Source: Candidatus Methylomirabilis sp.
GTDB lineage: Bacteria; DYJV01
DNA length: 8,384 bases
Assembly: GCA_020722945.1 (NCBI GenBank)
Contig: DYJV01000032.1
Span: forward strand, 1-8,384
Reading direction: 5' to 3'
Shown here: positions 296 through 8,173 of the stretch, in pieces
Layout of the letters: each line of letters begins with the position of its first letter
Numbering within the stretch: position 1 is the stretch's first letter
Program-made: the position numbers and the translations under genes
Notes under the pieces: generated by a model
Told to the model about the DNA's origin: nothing
The model's input: only the letters and a program-made list of their open reading frames with translations
Database searches by the model: none

Positions 296-496
296 CTATA
301 TTGCAACTTTCATCTCTTTAAAATAAACACTCATTGGTGTTTTATATCCAAATCTTGAATGAAGCCTCCTGTTATTGTAGAATTCTATGTATTTTTTGAT
401 TCCTATCCTTAATTCTTTCACACTTTGATATTTATTCAAATAAATATCTTCATATTTTAATGTCCTAAAAAATCTCTCTATATTATTATCTGTCAA
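296..496 (-). pseudogene. IS3-family transposase, C-terminal remnant
   Basis: Only the last third of the DDE integrase core of an IS3-family OrfB transposase remains. The fragment has TDNNIERFFRTLKYEDIYL, whose Glu in IERFF corresponds to the last catalytic acid of the DDE triad, then YIEFYNNRRLHSRFGYKTP, the usual C-terminal helix and tail, and a normal stop. The two catalytic Asp residues and OrfA are absent. In frame upstream there is a stop at 512-514, and the only possible start is a TTG, so this is a relic and not a gene. It seems one residue short just before the catalytic Glu compared with the usual DNxxIERFW pattern. It lies directly behind the last hyf gene on the same strand, its relic DNA beginning at or within a few bases of that gene's stop codon. 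It probably is not expressed as a functional protein. Confidence 0.85.
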
Positions 497-533
497 ATCT
501 ATTTGTTTTTTTCATTACTTCTTGTCAAATCTA
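491..533. repeat. 11-base direct repeat at the operon/IS junction
   Basis: TGTCAAATCTA occurs at 491-501 and again at 523-533. The second copy lies in the C-terminal codons of the hydrogenase-like small subunit (LDLTR) and the first spans its stop codon and the beginning of the transposase relic. This could mark microhomology used when the IS was truncated, a small local duplication, or chance in A+T-rich DNA. Confidence 0.5.
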
Positions 534-1260
534 ATAATGCATTTACAATAGTTAAAGGATGCGAAGGATTCCCGGGTATATATAAATCAACTTTAATATC
601 TTTTAGTATGCTTCGGTTAATAGCTTTACTATCAGCAAAAAGACCACCGCTTATTGCATCTATCCCACAGAGAATAAATAGTTTAGGTTTTGGAATTGCA
701 TCGTAAGCAATACGCAAGGGCTCTGCCATGTTCTCACTTATGGGACCTGTAAGCACTATGCCATCAGCATGGCGTGGTGATGCGGTAAACTCAATTCCGT
801 AACGGCTCATATCAAAATTAGCATTCCCGGCTGCTCCTAACTCCCATTCGCAAGAATTGTCGCCACCAGCTGATACCTGTCGTAATTTTAATGATTTTCC
901 AAATACTGTTTTTACTTCATCTCTAATTATGCTATCATCAACTCGTATAGGATTGGTTTCACCCTCTTTAATGATTAAATCTTCGCGTAAATTTGATGCT
1001 ATTCTATAATCTTGTGTGAATTTTATTTTTTCGGGAAACGCAAAAGCACATTCGCCACAAAAAGCACATTTTCCCATATCTATGCTGACAGGATTTGTGC
1101 CGATAGCACCCAAAGGGCAAATTTTAGCTAATGCTTGCTCATCAACTTTTACTGTGCTTATTTCTGGACGACCACGAAATGGTGGTCGTAATTTTACATT
1201 TCTTACATCGGGAATATATTGTTTCCCGTTATGATACATCGCTATTATTTCTTTAATCAT
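499..1260 (-). CDS. hyfI: Fused ferredoxin / NuoB-like small subunit of a group 4 hydrogenase-related (Ehr-type) complex
   Basis: This 253-residue protein joins a HyfH-like ferredoxin domain (about 1-95) to a HyfI/NuoB-like small-subunit domain (about 115-250); the two are separate proteins in E. coli Hyf. The family passes electrons through Fe-S clusters to the large subunit at the cytoplasmic face. The ferredoxin part keeps C48, C65, C68 and C71, enough for one [4Fe-4S] cluster. There is no Cys before C48, and F75 replaces the eighth ferredoxin Cys, so the other cluster is lost. In the NuoB part the proximal-cluster positions read D134, C137, D201 and N231, in contexts AGGDNSCEWEL, GIDAISGG and YIPGNPSHP, so three of four ligands are replaced. 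The fold signatures (SPRHAD at 161-166, VDLYIPG) remain. I chose ATG at 1260 because AGGGA lies four bases upstream; an in-frame TTG at 1293 would overlap hyfG. The gene starts 14 bases after hyfG, and its stop abuts an IS3 relic. Confidence 0.88.
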   Translation of the reverse strand: MIKEIIAMYHNGKQYIPDVRNVKLRPPFRGRPEISTVKVDEQALAKICPLGAIGTNPVSIDMGKCAFCGECAFAFPEKIKFTQDYRIASNLREDLIIKEGETNPIRVDDSIIRDEVKTVFGKSLKLRQVSAGGDNSCEWELGAAGNANFDMSRYGIEFTASPRHADGIVLTGPISENMAEPLRIAYDAIPKPKLFILCGIDAISGGLFADSKAINRSILKDIKVDLYIPGNPSHPLTIVNALLDLTRSNEKNK

Positions 1261-1274: not shown

Positions 1275-2804
1275 TTATAAATCGTGTCCGCAATAACTTA
1301 AATTATAACTTTTATTATTGATTGGAAAATCCGAAATTTCAACATTACGTAGTGACAACTCCAATGCTTTCCAATTGTGCATTGAGGGGTCTTTTATTTT
1401 GTAATGCTTTAATTTACCCAACTCATCGGTTATAGCACAATGGCAAACTTCTCCTCGCCAAGCTTCTACTAATGATATAGCAAAACTGTTTGGTTTTAGT
1501 TTAAGTTGATAATCCGGTTTTTCGTTTGGTAAAGCATCGAATGTATAATTTCCCATTAGATTTCTAATCCAAGCTATCGACTTTCTTACTTCTTTCTTTT
1601 TTAATAGAAAACGTGCAAAAACATCACCTTTTTCGCCTGTAACTGTTTCGTAAGGAAATTTTTGATAAGCAATGTTCGGATGACTTACGCGAATATCTCT
1701 TTCGATTTGAGACATACGAGCCGACAGTCCTACATTTCCTATCATTTGAGCTTGTTCGTGGCTGACAGTACCAATAAAATCAAAACGATTTTGAACGCTT
1801 GGCAAACGAAAAGTAATGTCAACCATTTCTTCAAATTGTGTTTCAAATTTTAGTAACACATTCAATAATTCTTCTTTCAATTCTTCGGTGAATGGGAAAT
1901 GGCTTCCCCCAACTCTAATAAGACTTTTACCAAAACGGTTTCCGCACCAAAATTGAGTAAAATTAATAATGGCGGTTCGCAAAATACCAAAAACATTTGA
2001 GCCGAAATGATAGGCAATATCTGTACACAATGCACTAATATCCCCTGTATGAATAGCTATTCGCTCCAATTCCAAAGCCAAAGCACGTTCAATGTGTCTT
2101 TGTTCACTCAATTGCTTATCAGCAAGTGCTTCCATAGTTTGAGCAAAAGCAACTGTATGACCTATTACGGTATCTCCGGCTATATTTTCGGCTAATAAGT
2201 TGCGCTGTAAATTATTTTCTTTATCTAAAAACAGTTGCTCTATTCCACGATGTTGCCAGCCTAATTGGATTTCAAGATGTAATACCGTTTCACCATTGCA
2301 AATAAAACGAAAATGTCCGGGCTCGATAACCCCTGCATGAATAGGTCCTACACCAACTTCGTGCAATTCTTCGCTTTTTATGGAATAGAAAGGATAATCG
2401 TTTATTTGCATCTTTTGGTTGGCTCGATTATGTGCAAAACGGACAGGTTTTTGCCAAGGATGCTCGATAAAATTGATTCCAAAATTCTCGTGAATTTCTC
2501 TTTCAAATATGTGTAAGGCAAATATTTCTTTACTTAAAGAAGCAAGCTCTTGCTTTTCGTCAGATTTCAGCACATGGGACAACACTAATATATTGTGGTT
2601 TTTATCATCGCCAATAGCCATAATACATTGTAAATCCTTGCCTGTTTTATAAGCAAAATAAGTCAAACAATGATTTTCGGATTTTTTCAATAGTTCAATA
2701 ACCAGCTGATAAAAATCTGTATATTTATAAACTGTAATATCTTTTAACTCAACAGATTGATTATTCTTTATTTTTAACATTTTATTTAATTCTTCCATAG
2801 TCAT
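1275..2804 (-). CDS. hyfG: Group 4 hydrogenase-like large subunit (HyfG/HycE-like, NuoC-NuoD fusion) lacking the NiFe ligands
   Basis: The 509-residue protein has a NuoC-like N-terminal domain (about 25-125; signature ALHIFEREIHENFGI at 96-110) and a NuoD/NiFe-large-subunit domain (about 145-509; GPIHAGVIEPGHFRF at 153-167, QLGWQHRGIE at 180-189). Catalytic HycE/HyfG proteins hold the NiFe centre with an N-terminal and a C-terminal CxxC. Here the first motif region reads ENIAGDTVIGH (206-216), with A209 and T212 in the Cys positions. The C-terminal region reads NKSYNLSYCGHDL (497-509), with no CxxC; C505 is a lone Cys not in register. The protein stops right there, with no peptide for a maturation endopeptidase to remove. 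It therefore cannot bind NiFe normally and resembles the Ehr large subunits, or NuoD, which is also metal-free. H156 keeps the GPxH context near which complex I binds quinone. The start overlaps the hyfF stop by one base (TAATG). Confidence 0.9.
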   Translation of the reverse strand: MTMEELNKMLKIKNNQSVELKDITVYKYTDFYQLVIELLKKSENHCLTYFAYKTGKDLQCIMAIGDDKNHNILVLSHVLKSDEKQELASLSKEIFALHIFEREIHENFGINFIEHPWQKPVRFAHNRANQKMQINDYPFYSIKSEELHEVGVGPIHAGVIEPGHFRFICNGETVLHLEIQLGWQHRGIEQLFLDKENNLQRNLLAENIAGDTVIGHTVAFAQTMEALADKQLSEQRHIERALALELERIAIHTGDISALCTDIAYHFGSNVFGILRTAIINFTQFWCGNRFGKSLIRVGGSHFPFTEELKEELLNVLLKFETQFEEMVDITFRLPSVQNRFDFIGTVSHEQAQMIGNVGLSARMSQIERDIRVSHPNIAYQKFPYETVTGEKGDVFARFLLKKKEVRKSIAWIRNLMGNYTFDALPNEKPDYQLKLKPNSFAISLVEAWRGEVCHCAITDELGKLKHYKIKDPSMHNWKALELSLRNVEISDFPINNKSYNLSYCGHDL

Positions 2805-4228
2805 TAATTAAGAATTGCAATGGCATTATTGATTAAATCTACAAAAAATACCGGTGGGTTTATTCCCAAGTAAATTACCAAACTAAATAAAATAAATTGC
2901 GAAACAGTTTCAAATCTATTAGGTGTGATTTTATTCATATCATTTGGTTTTTCATCATTATTAAAAAGCATATGAAACGTGTTTTTACTAAATGAATAAA
3001 TAATTAAACTGAGCAATATCAAAACAAAGATTGCAATAAGGTAATGGTTTTCTAAAAACAGAGCTTTAAAAACAAAAAACTCACTAACAAACATACCTGA
3101 AGGAGGGATAGCCAAAATAGAAATAAACCCAAAAGTTAAAGCCAACGCTCCGATTGTATTTTGTTTAAAATAGCCCGAAATATCTTTGATAAAATATGAG
3201 CCATAAAAATGATGAACCTGTCCGATTTGATAAAACAAACCTGCTTTTGCAAAAGAGTGCAGAATTAAATGTAGAATAGCAGCATAATAGCCAATGCCAC
3301 CGATTCCCAATCCTAATGCAACAATACCCATGTGTTCGAGACTAGAAAAAGCAAACATACGTTTAGAATGCACAATTTTTAGCATTTGAATTGCTGACAT
3401 AAAAACAGAAAGAACTCCTGAAATTATCAATACATTTTGTGCCCAATGCAAAATTGTGGTTTGGGAAATAATGGAAAAAACTCTAAAAATTCCAATAAAA
3501 CCCACATTCATTAGAGTTGTAGAAATAAAAGCACTTATAGGTGGTGGTGCTGCAGTATGAGCATCAACAGCAACAGTATATAGTGGAAACAAACCCATTT
3601 TTGCACTAAATCCTGCAAGTACTAAAAGAAAAGCCATTTTGAGCCAAATAGTATCCATTTGTTGAGCAATTGTAATCAGATGAGAGATATTTAAATTAGT
3701 AATACCGCTGTTACTTGCAGTTATACTTAAAAATAATATTCCTACAAATGCTAAAGCAACACCAATAGATGAAACAAATAAATATTTCCAAGCTGCTTCA
3801 AGAGCAATTTTAGTTTTTTCAAAATAAATTAATAATGAAACAAAAAGAGTTGTAGTTTCGATACTTACCCATAAAACAGCGAGATTATTAGAAAAATATG
3901 CTGAAATCATTGCCGTAATAAGCATTATTAAATATGAGAAATACTTCGCATTTTGTTTTTCGGTAAAATTATGACGTTGTAAATACAATCTGCTATGATA
4001 GAATGTTGCAAAGCTTAGTATTGTCAATACAAAGGACAACAGCACTCCCAAACTATCATATTTAAAATAAACGTTTTCTATTTCATTGATATGCAAATAT
4101 GAATAGCTACTAATTAATATCAATAATATTAAATAAATAGCTGATAATATAGCAGTTATAGTATTTTTGTTAAATAAAAAAATACTCGCACTTAGTATAA
4201 TTGATAGTATAATAAATATAATGATCAT
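2804..4228 (-). CDS. hyfF: HyfF-like antiporter-type membrane subunit (NuoM/NuoN family)
   Basis: A 474-residue, almost entirely hydrophobic protein with about 13-14 predicted membrane helices, of the proton-conducting NuoL/M/N-Mrp family. E124 (VSIETTT) corresponds to the conserved TM5 Glu and K210 (GFSAKMGLFPLY) to the TM7 Lys, the pair known in this family to drive proton translocation. Next comes the amphipathic AHTAAPPPISAF segment (223-234) typical of HyfF. Further polar residues in membrane segments are H297 region FSSLEHMG (295-301), H320, H324 and K328 (LHLILHSFAKAG), and K415 in a late helix (YSFSKNTF). The length is close to E. coli HyfF (about 526) though somewhat shorter at the C-terminus. 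It starts four bases after the hyfE stop and its own stop overlaps the hyfG start. Its channel residues look intact, in contrast to the degraded redox subunits downstream. Confidence 0.92.
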   Translation of the reverse strand: MIIIFIILSIILSASIFLFNKNTITAILSAIYLILLILISSYSYLHINEIENVYFKYDSLGVLLSFVLTILSFATFYHSRLYLQRHNFTEKQNAKYFSYLIMLITAMISAYFSNNLAVLWVSIETTTLFVSLLIYFEKTKIALEAAWKYLFVSSIGVALAFVGILFLSITASNSGITNLNISHLITIAQQMDTIWLKMAFLLVLAGFSAKMGLFPLYTVAVDAHTAAPPPISAFISTTLMNVGFIGIFRVFSIISQTTILHWAQNVLIISGVLSVFMSAIQMLKIVHSKRMFAFSSLEHMGIVALGLGIGGIGYYAAILHLILHSFAKAGLFYQIGQVHHFYGSYFIKDISGYFKQNTIGALALTFGFISILAIPPSGMFVSEFFVFKALFLENHYLIAIFVLILLSLIIYSFSKNTFHMLFNNDEKPNDMNKITPNRFETVSQFILFSLVIYLGINPPVFFVDLINNAIAILN

Positions 4229-4232
4229 TGCA

Positions 4233-4862
4233 TTAGTCTTTTAAATTTGAAAGTTGATTAATATTATCGTTTTGGAAAGTATTGCCAATTCGGTTTACAA
4301 AAATTCCCAATACAAGTATTCCCATTACAACATCAAGAAGAATAGCCAAGTTAACCAGCATAGGCATTGCACTTCCAACAGCCAGTGATAACATAAATAT
4401 TCCATTTTCAATAATGAGATAGCCTACCACATGCGAAAAAATATTTTTATGAATAATAATAAAATAAAAACCGTAAATTATTGATGCAAAAGCAACTGCA
4501 AAAAATTGAGTATGTAATTTATTATCTAAAATATTATTGCTCAAAATAAAACTTATTATAAGGGTAAGCATTACAACGATAACTGAGTAAAAGACAGGCA
4601 CTGATGGTTCGTGTATGCGTTTTAAACTGTTGTGCTTTCTTACTTTGTTTAGAAACCAAGGAACGACAATTGATTTTACAACAATGGTTTCAGTAAGAAT
4701 AAAGATTAAATCAAAGATTTCTATCTCATTTAAACTGGAAAAAACCATTCCGAACAATATCACACCTTGAATTACTAATAACCAAACGAATTTTTTAACT
4801 CTTTCGGCCAAAGCAAAATAAATTAAACTTATTGCATATATGATTATAAATATATAGGTCAT
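4233..4862 (-). CDS. hyfE: HyfE-like small membrane subunit (NuoK-related)
   Basis: A 209-residue hydrophobic protein with about six to seven membrane helices, near the usual HyfE length of about 216. The N-terminal half has TETIVVKSIVVPWFLNK (57-73), the HyfE pattern of a helix ending in an internal Lys and IPW-like turn. The C-terminal half has GYLIIENGIFML (147-158), where E152 corresponds to the key membrane Glu of NuoK, followed by D177 in the next helix (LAILLDVVMGILVLG). In group 4 complexes this subunit links the antiporter-like subunits to the NuoH-like heel and forms part of the charged axis across the membrane. It begins one base after the hyfC stop and ends four bases before hyfF. 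I see nothing truncated. Confidence 0.9.
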   Translation of the reverse strand: MTYIFIIIYAISLIYFALAERVKKFVWLLVIQGVILFGMVFSSLNEIEIFDLIFILTETIVVKSIVVPWFLNKVRKHNSLKRIHEPSVPVFYSVIVVMLTLIISFILSNNILDNKLHTQFFAVAFASIIYGFYFIIIHKNIFSHVVGYLIIENGIFMLSLAVGSAMPMLVNLAILLDVVMGILVLGIFVNRIGNTFQNDNINQLSNLKD

Positions 4863-4863
4863 T

Positions 4864-5778
4864 TTAATCCAAAATTATTTTTTGTGTAATAATTAAAGTT
4901 GTTAAAAATCCGACAACAGCAATAGCTGATAATACAATAATCCACTGCGGATTTTTATACATTTTGTTTCTTGCTTTAAAAGCTTCTAATATTCCGACTA
5001 TGCAGGCAAAAGCAAATTGAATTACTAAATAACCTGCTATTTGTTCGTATATATTCCAAGTGCTTTTTATGAGAAAATTAGCAATTAAACTTCCGTAAAT
5101 CGCAAATTTCAACCAAGTTGCGATATGAATCAAAGCTAAATCAAAGCCGCTGTTATCCAATACCATAACTTCGTGAACCATCGTTAATTCAAGGTGAGTT
5201 TTTGGGTCATCAACAGGCATACGTGAATTCTCTACCATAGCAATATAAAATAGCACATAAATGAATGCACTCCCTATGGCATACGATAAATTACTTCCAA
5301 TATGAAAATGTGTAAATAACTTGTGAAAAGAAATATTGTTTGTAAATAGAGCTACTGAAGCGGCTAAAATAAAGAATGCAGGTTCAACTAACATAGAATA
5401 AAGTGCTTCTCTGCTAGCTCCCATTCCTTCAAAACCGCTTCCTGTATCCATAGCTGCAATAATCATCAGGAATTTACCGATTGCCAATAAATAGGCAAAG
5501 AAAACAAAGTCTCCGTGAAAAGATAACAGTCCGGCTTTCCCGTCAAAAGGAATAAAAAAGGCAGCCAATAATACAGATGAAAAATATACTATTGGTGCTA
5601 TCTTAAAAATTAGGCTTGTTGTTGAGCTATAAACTGCACCTTTCTTAAACAAACGAATTACATCGTAAAGCGGTTGTAATATCGAAGGCATTTTACGAGC
5701 TGCAATTTTTGCTTTTGTTTTTGTTATTATTCCAACAAAAAATAGTGCAGATATAAGTATTAAGAATAAACTAATCAT
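4864..5778 (-). CDS. hyfC: HyfC/HycD-like membrane subunit (NuoH homologue)
   Basis: A 304-residue membrane protein with about eight helices, like HyfC/HycD (about 307-322 residues). It anchors the hydrophilic large and small subunits to the membrane and forms the entrance region that is the quinone chamber in complex I. Signatures seen are QPLYDVIRLFKKGAVYS (35-51), the cytoplasmic loop after the first helix; FEGMGASREALYSMLVEPA (116-134), with E117, R123 and E132; and VENSRMPVDDPKTHLELTM (182-200), with E183, R186, D190, D191, H195, E197 and then H202 and E203. These acidic and basic residues match the conserved family set that couples the redox arm to the proton channels. The start overlaps the hyfB stop by four bases (ATGA), suggesting translational coupling. 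No missing key residue is apparent. Confidence 0.93.
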   Translation of the reverse strand: MISLFLILISALFFVGIITKTKAKIAARKMPSILQPLYDVIRLFKKGAVYSSTTSLIFKIAPIVYFSSVLLAAFFIPFDGKAGLLSFHGDFVFFAYLLAIGKFLMIIAAMDTGSGFEGMGASREALYSMLVEPAFFILAASVALFTNNISFHKLFTHFHIGSNLSYAIGSAFIYVLFYIAMVENSRMPVDDPKTHLELTMVHEVMVLDNSGFDLALIHIATWLKFAIYGSLIANFLIKSTWNIYEQIAGYLVIQFAFACIVGILEAFKARNKMYKNPQWIIVLSAIAVVGFLTTLIITQKIILD

Positions 5779-7757
5779 ATCAAATTAAAGTAGGTTAGTA
5801 ACCCGATTATAATGATAAATGCAAGAGCATAAAGCAGATAATCTTGTATTTTACCTGTTTGGAAAACAGCAATTTTTTCAAAAAAATTAAGCGTTTTATT
5901 TAAGGGTATGGTAACTAAATAATCTTCAAAAATATCGCTTGAATGTGTTTCAAAGCTTCTTTTTTTCGGAAAAATTTCAGCAATATCAAAATTTTCATAT
6001 TTTTTTCTAACATTAACTATTTTTGACGACAGTTGAACAAAATTATCAGCATAAGAAGTAGCTGTATATTGATGCAATGCAGGATTTGCTCCGGTATATC
6101 CACAGCCCCAGGTGTCATTTTCTGAAATTTGATGTCGCTTTTGCTGCCATGCTCTGAGTAACCATAGAATTCCTATTATTGAAATAAAAATTCCTGATGA
6201 AAGACTTATTTTATTCAAAACGGGAGTCATTTCGTAAAGTATTAATGCGTTTTCGGTAAAAATAGCCACAACATTCATCAGTGGCTCAACAATTATAAAA
6301 GACCCCAATCCGATAAGAAGAATTAAAAAGCCTATCATAAAATCAGGAATAATCATTACCGGTTCTACTTCGGTAACATTTTTTGTTTTGTCACTTCGAC
6401 CTGTTCCAAGGAAAATGATGCTAAAAACCTTGGTGAAGCAAAATATTGCTAAACCCCCAATAATGGCTAAACCTGAAAAAGAGAAAAGCAAAATAATATC
6501 CATAAATAAACTTCCTGCCTGTAATGATTTAAACATTCCTGAATAGATTAAAAATTCAGAAATAAATCCGTTAAAAGGTGGTAGTCCGCTGATGGCAAGT
6601 GCTCCCAGTAAGAAAAACAGAGCTGTTTTTGGCATCTTTTTGATAAGTCCTCCTAATTGCTCAATGTTTCTTGTGTGAGTTTGTTTATAAACTGAACCTG
6701 CGGTGTAAAAAAGTAATGATTTAAACAGAGAATGATTTAAAATGTGTAAAATTCCACCTCCAAAACCAAGAACTGCTAATACAGGCATATTTTCTGCCAA
6801 ACCAATTACACCCAATCCAATACCAATCCCAATAATTCCAATATTTTCAATACTGTGATAAGCTAAAAGTTTTTTCACATCGTGCTGAACAATGGCAAGT
6901 GAAACTCCAATAATTCCTGACACTAACGATATTATTAGAATAAATAAACCTATTCCGAATAAATCTTCATGGATATAGCTAATCACTCTGAGTATTCCGT
7001 AAATGCCCATTTTTATCATCACACCGCTCATTACTCCCGAAACGTGAGAAGGTGCGGCAGGGTGGGCATGTGGTAACCATGAGTGCAATGGTATAAATCC
7101 GGCTTTTATTCCAAATCCAATAAAAAACAGTAGAAATAATGGAAATGGATTTTTAGAAGAAAAATAAACTGATAAACTATCAAAACTAAACGCTGATTGA
7201 GTTTGAATGTAAACTATAATAAAGGCTATCATTAAAAATACCACCCCTATATGCATTTGGATAAGGTATTTTAGTCCAATTTTAACTGTTTCTTTTTTCT
7301 CAGATTCAAAAATCACTAAAAAGAAAGATACTAAAGACATAATTTCCCAAACAATCAGAAAGGCTAAGGCATCTCTTATCATCACCACCAATAGCATGGA
7401 AATATGCAGCCATAAAAAATTAAAGTAATGGAAGGCTATTTCTGTAGTATTTTTTTTTGGCAAATAAGGTTCAAGGTAGCCTTTAGCATAAAGCAATCCG
7501 GTAAACGAAGTAAAATTGATAACGAAAATAAAAAATGCCGATAGTTTATCTATTTTTAATGAAACAGAATTTCCTAATAAATTAATAAAAGGAAGTTCTA
7601 ATATATTACCTGTTGTAAAGGCTTTTATTGCCCAAAATGAAGTAATACCTATAATACCAATCTGTAACAATAGGCTAATATTATTCTGATGTTGTTTTGG
7701 CAACAAGAATAATATTATTGTTGAAATAATTATGATTTGTAAAATAATAATTGTCAT
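5775..7757 (-). CDS. hyfB: HyfB-like antiporter-type membrane subunit (NuoL family)
   Basis: First gene of the operon, 660 residues, matching HyfB (about 672) better than HycC (about 608). The NuoL/MrpA-type core carries E138 (IVWEIMSL), the TM5 Glu; K218 (GFGIKAGFIPLHSWLPHAH), the TM7 Lys; K249 (GVMIKMGIYG), the TM8 Lys; H301/E304 (LLAYHSIENIG); H338, H342 and K346 (LHILNHSLFKS); and K443 in TM12 (FTKVFS). All belong to the proton-channel set of the family. The C-terminal extension has WGCGY near 565-570 and QYTATSYAD, typical of HyfB, a soluble linker, and a last membrane helix at about 640-660. An in-frame stop lies just upstream of the ATG, so the start is well defined, although no strong Shine-Dalgarno sequence precedes it. 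No promoter of a known consensus is evident in the 76 bases between the recombinase relic and this gene. Confidence 0.93.
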   Translation of the reverse strand: MTIIILQIIIISTIILFLLPKQHQNNISLLLQIGIIGITSFWAIKAFTTGNILELPFINLLGNSVSLKIDKLSAFFIFVINFTSFTGLLYAKGYLEPYLPKKNTTEIAFHYFNFLWLHISMLLVVMIRDALAFLIVWEIMSLVSFFLVIFESEKKETVKIGLKYLIQMHIGVVFLMIAFIIVYIQTQSAFSFDSLSVYFSSKNPFPLFLLFFIGFGIKAGFIPLHSWLPHAHPAAPSHVSGVMSGVMIKMGIYGILRVISYIHEDLFGIGLFILIISLVSGIIGVSLAIVQHDVKKLLAYHSIENIGIIGIGIGLGVIGLAENMPVLAVLGFGGGILHILNHSLFKSLLFYTAGSVYKQTHTRNIEQLGGLIKKMPKTALFFLLGALAISGLPPFNGFISEFLIYSGMFKSLQAGSLFMDIILLFSFSGLAIIGGLAIFCFTKVFSIIFLGTGRSDKTKNVTEVEPVMIIPDFMIGFLILLIGLGSFIIVEPLMNVVAIFTENALILYEMTPVLNKISLSSGIFISIIGILWLLRAWQQKRHQISENDTWGCGYTGANPALHQYTATSYADNFVQLSSKIVNVRKKYENFDIAEIFPKKRSFETHSSDIFEDYLVTIPLNKTLNFFEKIAVFQTGKIQDYLLYALAFIIIIGLLTYFNLI

Positions 7758-7837: not shown

Positions 7838-8167
7838 AATTTCCCTGTTTTTGTTAAATTATCTAACGGACTGCCCTGTCTGCCGATAGGTAGATATTTT
7901 ATCCAGCCCTTTTTTTGTTATATGTGTGTATATTTTAGTTGTTTTTGAATTTGCATGTCCAAGCAATTTTTTTAATATCTTAAATTTATTCCTCGTTCCA
8001 AAAGATGTGTTGCAAAGCTGTGTCTAAGGGTGTGAACTGTTGCATGTTTCTTTACCATTAAAATAATCTAAAAAATTTCTAAAAGCCTTGATGTAGTTTA
8101 TTTGAGTATTAATGCTGTATCGTTTTAGTTTGAGTATTTTGATGTAATCAGCAATAATCTCTTCCAC
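7834..8167 (-). pseudogene. Tyrosine recombinase (phage-integrase family), degraded
   Basis: Reading the minus strand, GTG at 8167 preceded by AAAGGAG begins a SAM-like core-binding domain (EEIIADYIKILKLKRYSI, then [15 protein letters not shown]). At about 8045-8056 the frame jumps into the catalytic C-terminal motif, [20 protein letters not shown], so the middle of the protein with the first catalytic Arg and the Lys is deleted. A one-base-type frameshift follows at a run of seven T/A at 7967-7973; in the new frame comes LLGHANSKTTKIYTHI with the box II His and the nucleophilic Tyr. A 22-base insertion at 7873-7894 then breaks the last codons, after which SPLDNL can be read to a stop at 7834-7836. 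Intact relatives are XerC/IntI-like recombinases of about 270-380 residues. It is certainly inactive and points to past integration next to the operon. Confidence 0.85.
7873..7894. repeat. 22-base GC-rich repeat inserted in the recombinase relic
   Basis: Removing GCCCTGTCTGCCGATAGGTA plus two bases (GA) restores a continuous reading from LDKI to SPLDNL in the recombinase C-terminus, the usual ending of this family, so the stretch is an insertion. It contains an imperfect palindrome (CTGCC GATA GGTAG). A related sequence is at 116-135 and a possible one at 8352-8376. Confidence 0.5.
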
Positions 8168-8173
8168 TATAAC

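Follow-up and report, generated by a model that had tools for sequence, protein, structure and literature searches.

Ehr (energy-converting-hydrogenase-related) complexes are related to the group 4 hydrogenases but lack a NiFe site, and their function has been described as unknown (PMC12342949, PMC10284858, PMC6349859). They have been reported in Geobacter sulfurreducens (GSU0739-45), Nitrospira, CPR bacteria and Margulisbacteria (PMC7894505, PMC12342949, PMC10284858, PMC6349859, PMC7304191). MBS from Pyrococcus furiosus is likewise a NiFe-less relative, and its proximal cluster has three Cys ligands (PMC7684303). The Yarrowia complex I variant R121M assembles without the N2 cluster and has no quinone-reductase activity (PMC8042128). 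The complex I subunits NuoB, NuoD, NuoH, NuoL, NuoN and NuoK are homologous to Ehr subunits. Mrp antiporters also contain homologous antiporter subunits, which move ions without redox chemistry; unlike Ehr, they have no NuoB/NuoD-like cytoplasmic arm. A major question still open in bioenergetics is how complex I couples electron transfer near N2 to ion pumping far from it.

The stretch of DNA analyzed here (the window, 8,384 nucleotides from a Candidatus Methylomirabilis sp.) contains a complete six-gene ehrABCDLS operon on its minus strand, of which ehrA is the first gene. Its features are:

ehrA: 5775-7757, minus strand; NuoL/HyfB-like antiporter subunit
ehrB: 4864-5778, minus strand; NuoH/HyfC-like subunit with conserved E-channel acids
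ehrC: 4233-4862, minus strand; HyfE/NuoK-like subunit
ehrD: 2804-4228, minus strand; NuoN/HyfF-like antiporter subunit
ehrL: 1275-2804, minus strand; NuoC+NuoD-like fused large subunit without NiFe ligands
ehrS: 499-1260, minus strand; ferredoxin+NuoB fusion small subunit, 253 aa, ATG at 1260
EhrS domains: one-cluster ferredoxin domain, ~residues 30-90; NuoB/HycG-like domain without the N2 site, ~residues 113-250
IS3-family transposase: 296-496, minus strand; C-terminal fragment directly downstream of ehrS
Tyrosine recombinase: ~7860-8170, minus strand; broken remnant upstream of ehrA, with pieces in several frames, identified by eye

The encoded proteins are homologs of those of group 4 hydrogenases, NiFe-binding Cys are missing from the large subunit, and the operon joins EhrL (NuoC+D) and EhrS (ferredoxin+NuoB) to membrane subunits like HyfB, HyfC, HyfE and HyfF. 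Judged from its genes, the complex thus fits the published definition of an Ehr complex; it has the same EhrA/B/C/D/L/S set as the published complexes, and neither has a NiFe site. The large subunit of a group 4 [NiFe] hydrogenase contains four NiFe-binding Cys, whereas in EhrL the CGxC motif is replaced by AGDT and the C-terminus reads LSYCGHDL, the second C-terminal Cys being absent. A four-Cys N2/proximal cluster is usual in Ehr complexes but lies outside the published definition, and it is here that the window departs from its relatives. The EhrS proteins that we retrieved outside the N2-less lineages, a set that did not include the EhrS of the published examples, carry N2 and usually two ferredoxin-domain clusters, whereas those of the window’s clade carry one ferredoxin-domain cluster and no N2. 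The limited collection of literature searched contained no description of N2 loss in Ehr complexes. The EhrS positions concerned are:

D134: 859-861, minus strand; codon GAC, first N2 ligand position, Cys in relatives
C137: 850-852, minus strand; codon TGC, the sole N2 ligand Cys retained
D201: 658-660, minus strand; codon GAT, third N2 ligand position, Cys in relatives
N231: 568-570, minus strand; codon AAT, fourth N2 ligand position, Cys in relatives
F75: 1036-1038, minus strand; a Cys that would bind the second (N6a-type) ferredoxin-domain cluster has been lost here, and the motif-1 Cys for it are missing too
C48/C65/C68/C71: 1048-1119, minus strand; single remaining [4Fe-4S] ligand set, N6b-type, 99-100% conserved in the clade

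An earlier note on this DNA had read the four ligand positions of the N2 [4Fe-4S] cluster as D134, C137, D201 and N231, with three of the four Cys gone and the flanking family signatures intact. The EhrS translation bears out both observations (the signatures are GGDNSCEWE, CGIDAISGG and YIPGNPSHP), and in alignments to MbhJ (6cfw) and HycG (7z0s) the structural homologs have Cys at all four EhrS positions. Each Cys to Asp or Cys to Asn replacement requires two nucleotide changes. An AlphaFold2 model of EhrS has a mean pLDDT of 94, and its NuoB domain matches E. coli HycG (7z0s_G), the closest fold, with a Z score of 15.5 and an rmsd of 2.7 over 141 residues at 32% identity. By this model the NuoB domain keeps its fold despite losing three of its four N2 ligands. 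Systems containing HycG/HyfI and MbhJ, that is, formate hydrogenlyase and group 4 [NiFe] hydrogenases, bind both NiFe and the proximal cluster via Cys, while the window complex has neither ligand set. EhrS also differs from complex I, in which four NuoB Cys bind N2, and from MBS, which retains its three-Cys proximal [4Fe-4S] cluster as the catalyst; just C137 is Cys among the four EhrS positions. MBS is nonetheless the nearest known variation to an N2-less Ehr complex.

The rest of the electron path is reduced as well. We take C48/C65/C68/C71 to be an N6b-type set by motif logic, according to the established ferredoxin pattern. As this set remains and the other ferredoxin-domain set is gone, the genes allow for one canonical cluster in the complex. 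Reduced ferredoxin domains are also found in four-Cys relatives (L006, L150, L152-154 and L196-198), which the tree places in another subclade. These relatives suggested a stepwise order in which the ferredoxin-domain cluster was lost first and N2 later. Given their place in that other subclade, and given that both clusters are present in L195, the nearest lineage with four Cys, they do not establish such an order on the stem of the clade. The reverse reduction also exists: in L030:1417-2175 and L028:1468-2244 the EhrS ferredoxin domains are degenerate, with no or few ligand Cys, and the four-Cys N2 site is intact.

To place the window among its relatives we scanned one genome per species from GTDB 220, which gave 186 confirmed relatives, and analyzed the best 80 of the 186. 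Nearly all of these 80 are labeled Bacteroidota and share 60-91% identity with EhrS. Together with three sequences from whole-genome searches and the window itself, and with one row representing a second copy in L101, they make up 85 clade rows. The ligand pattern is D/C/D/N in 80 rows, D/C/E/N in two, and D/A/D/N, D/C/D/Y and S/D/D/N in one each; by site, D134 is present in 84 members, C137 in 83, D201 in 83 (Glu in the other two) and N231 in 84. Canonical close relatives have Cys at all four positions in 22/22 cases. In a tree computed after removal of the ligand columns, these N2-less proteins form one clade with support of 100/98, while the placement of L195 as its nearest four-Cys lineage has weaker support (90/61). 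A spread sample of 395 Bacteroidota genomes contained 17 EhrS matches; since these were mostly four-Cys, N2-less EhrS is patchy in the phylum. Our search of viral contigs for EhrS relatives found none.

Among the 253 EhrS positions, the only fixed differences between the clade and the 22 four-Cys relatives (a residue present in at least 85% of each group and differing between them) are positions 75, 134, 201 and 231. All four are cluster ligands, three of N2 and one, C75F, of the second ferredoxin-domain cluster. The dN/dS of EhrS is 0.07-0.10 against five homologs, about 0.075, and across all six ehr genes it is ~0.06-0.22 with intact reading frames. By these ratios, every ehr subunit is under purifying selection.

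These data bear on whether the loss of N2 is real and whether it is maintained. If EhrS had been misaligned, the true ligand cysteines would sit elsewhere in the protein, and a further Cys, C198, does occur three residues ahead of D201. However, C198 is Cys in 16/85 clade members and Val or Ala in most, which rules it out as a substitute N2 ligand; EhrS contains six Cys in total, four of them within the ferredoxin domain, and the motif context is ungapped, with the MbhJ and HycG alignments agreeing on the ligand positions. Misalignment is therefore very improbable. We regard as just as improbable that the operon is a dispensable hydrogenase relic under relaxed selection or undergoing pseudogenization. 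The operon does stand at a contig end in this genome, between the IS3 transposase fragment (296-496) and the broken tyrosine recombinase (~7860-8170), but the low dN/dS and intact frames of all six genes and the clade-wide conservation contradict the relic reading. The earlier note’s view that the loss was selected rather than the product of decay has thus held up: the pattern defines one well-supported clade under strong purifying selection, with fixed change at cluster-ligand positions only. Neither observation that would have counted against it was made, as no alignment places Cys at the three substituted EhrS positions and the close relatives do not all retain four Cys alongside a relaxed copy in the window.

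The window’s genome belongs to a phylum with two species in the genome set examined, and its other small-subunit match, an ordinary NuoB, has the complete set of ligand Cys. The EhrS of the window is 88-91% identical to proteins in three metagenome-assembled genomes (MAGs) labeled Rikenella, Melioribacter and Chloroherpeton, which come from one sulfidic-cave sample series; one of the three shares its phylum with a Paludibacter MAG. Mis-binning of the contig is disfavored because an RND gene further along it matches G001, from the window’s own order, at 59% identity, with Bacteroidota genomes far less similar. On account of this match we prefer horizontal acquisition, and the simplest reading of the sequences is that the operon was acquired horizontally from Bacteroidota.

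Several variations in gene content and divergence accompany these operons. The ehrD gene (2804-4228) has a dN of ~0.32 against L035-L037, three to four times that of the other five genes (~0.06-0.12), but is not unusually diverged from L041 (dN 0.19), a pattern that suggests recombination of ehrD. There is one ehrA in the window’s subclade, and two tandem ehrA genes are present in a large N2-less subclade (most of L048-L114). The second EhrS-like copy in L101 (L101:17741-18511) is D/C/D/N, has no recognizable ferredoxin domain and lies ~8.7 kb from the operon copy. In L115:1-16501, two tandem ehr operons occur in one genome (G336), and EhrS is four-Cys in both.

The membrane arm is intact. Counted over 64-95 clade sequences per subunit, 99-100% conservation was observed for E138, K218, K249, K346 and E401 of EhrA; E124, K148, K210, K328 and E383 of EhrD; E152 of the NuoK-like subunit; and the E-channel residues E124, E132, E183, D190, E197 and E203 of EhrB. 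EhrA and EhrD thereby contain the ion-translocating Lys and Glu residues of MrpA/MrpD-like subunits, an equivalence drawn by homology, not structure. The complex is not of Mrp composition, however: the Mrp set is MrpA-G without NuoB/D-like proteins, and here the conserved operon includes ehrL and ehrS.

Loss of N2 also coincides with new cysteines in EhrL, none of which is present in the four-Cys sister lineage L215:

EhrL C260: 2025-2027, minus strand; in 74/76 of the N2-less clade and mostly absent in four-Cys relatives
EhrL C454-H455-C456: 1437-1445, minus strand; in the RGE loop, C454 being invariant in the N2-less clade (76/76) and C456 nearly so (71/76), both rarely seen among four-Cys relatives

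Replacement of N2 by conserved acids next to an intact membrane arm suggests that ion movement in these complexes does without the usual electron transfer. In the mechanism we propose, electrons on the remaining cluster would, without N2, have no known way to reach the old quinone/NiFe pocket, so the complex would probably not belong to the known types of redox pump driven by ferredoxin or NADH. H+ and/or Na+/K+ would instead pass through the antiporter modules with no turnover at the old active site, the mode of action of Mrp. The cytoplasmic arm could then serve as a structural or regulatory cap and the single remaining cluster as a structural or redox-sensing element, while the old N2 pocket, now an acidic site formed by D134, D201 and N231, may mimic the cluster charge, bind protons or hold a divalent metal. 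Yarrowia complex I without N2 loses quinone reduction, which implies that in Ehr electrons can no longer take the known path from the remaining cluster to the old active site. The Yarrowia mutant is a dead quinone reductase; the loss in the window’s clade is natural, ancient and conserved. We also searched the operon neighborhoods in the clade for a redox partner gene and found no recurrent partner. A cut route and no recurrent partner together favor an ion-translocating complex independent of old-site turnover. That the clade has had its electron path cut and has been kept as a mover of H+ and/or Na+/K+ is, in our judgment from sequence, about evenly balanced between right and wrong. Against it, one complete cluster kept in a pure ion transporter would be odd.

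Two alternatives would keep the complex redox-driven. Another metal center may have taken over, as the strict retention of D134, D201 and N231 and the appearance of cysteines in EhrL could indicate; it would be formed by C137 and the three substituted positions, perhaps with C260, C454 and C456 of EhrL, and would make the complex a redox pump with new chemistry. C137 is retained in 83/85 members, and the proximal cluster of MBS already functions with three Cys (PMC7684303). The EhrL cysteines, nearly fixed in the clade and rare outside it, are the main argument for such a replaced center. Several lineages speak against it, however: L046 (D/A/D/N) and L109 (S/D/D/N) have lost C137 and retain the EhrL cysteines, L241 has a D/C/D/D site and none of them, and L133 has C454 alongside a normal N2 set. 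Moreover, we know of no precedent for a [4Fe-4S] cluster held by one Cys, two Asp and one Asn, and we consider a new metal center unlikely. Alternatively, N2 could be dispensable and the remaining N6b-type cluster could sustain redox drive by itself, for instance with an unlinked soluble flavoprotein or ferredoxin as partner. The C48/C65/C68/C71 set is not only nearly invariant in the clade but is the same cluster that is kept in other one-cluster lineages. Yet the operon has no recurrent redox partner gene nearby, the L241 operon has dispensed with even the N6b-type cluster, and in mitochondrial complex I loss of N2 abolishes quinone reduction (PMC8042128). We find this possibility quite unlikely.

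Ion translocation without old-site turnover, the reading we prefer, draws support from other losses of N2 in the superfamily. The site is also gone in L034/L117/L120 (D/C/D/D); in L116/L118 (D/A/G/D) together with L123 (D/S/S/H); in L033 (T/A/E/D) and Allomeiothermus silvanus DSM 9946 (T/D/E/S); in L010 (A/S/E/H); in L121 (D/E/S/S); and in a Mycobacterium branderi plasmid protein (N/D/D/A). Parsimony calls for no fewer than five to six independent losses of N2, a count taken from quick trees in which some forks are weak. The ferredoxin domain is also cut to one cluster in the Thermales, M. branderi and L121 proteins, and the one-cluster lineages A. silvanus, M. branderi, L033 and L121 keep the same cluster as the window’s clade. 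With seven losses taken as independent, 13/26 substituted positions are acidic versus ~3 expected (binomial p ~1e-6, background 0.115), a statistic that is approximate because lineage independence rests on the quick trees. The earlier note had suggested that D134 and D201 could bind another metal or take the structural place of the cluster; such repeated gain of carboxylates at the N2 site would agree with the binding of a metal, with mimicry of charge or with the binding of protons.

The most reduced example is L241:5266-12456, a complete operon (S-A-B-C-D-L). Its EhrS lacks a ferredoxin domain and contains a single Cys, and its EhrL contains two, too few for any four-Cys cluster. Our examination of this operon detected no Fe-S motif and no ferredoxin gene within it, and nearly all of the membrane-arm charges are retained. 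L241 thus apparently encodes a complex I homolog without an Fe-S cluster of its own.

Taken more broadly, a branch of the complex I superfamily may be a non-redox ion-translocating machine in which electron cofactors were lost repeatedly and independently, in L241 apparently every one, a conserved carboxylate site replaced N2 and both arms stayed under selection; we advance this tentatively, as somewhat more likely wrong than right. Natural complexes that keep their arms and pumping residues yet lack N2, and in the L241 case apparently any Fe-S cluster, would pull the ion-moving and redox machineries apart as no mutant has, and would show what role the cytoplasmic arm has when it is unable to carry electrons. 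The non-redox reading, if true, would assign a function to one branch of the Ehr complexes, and it would bear on the proposed origin of complex I from an Mrp-like antiporter.
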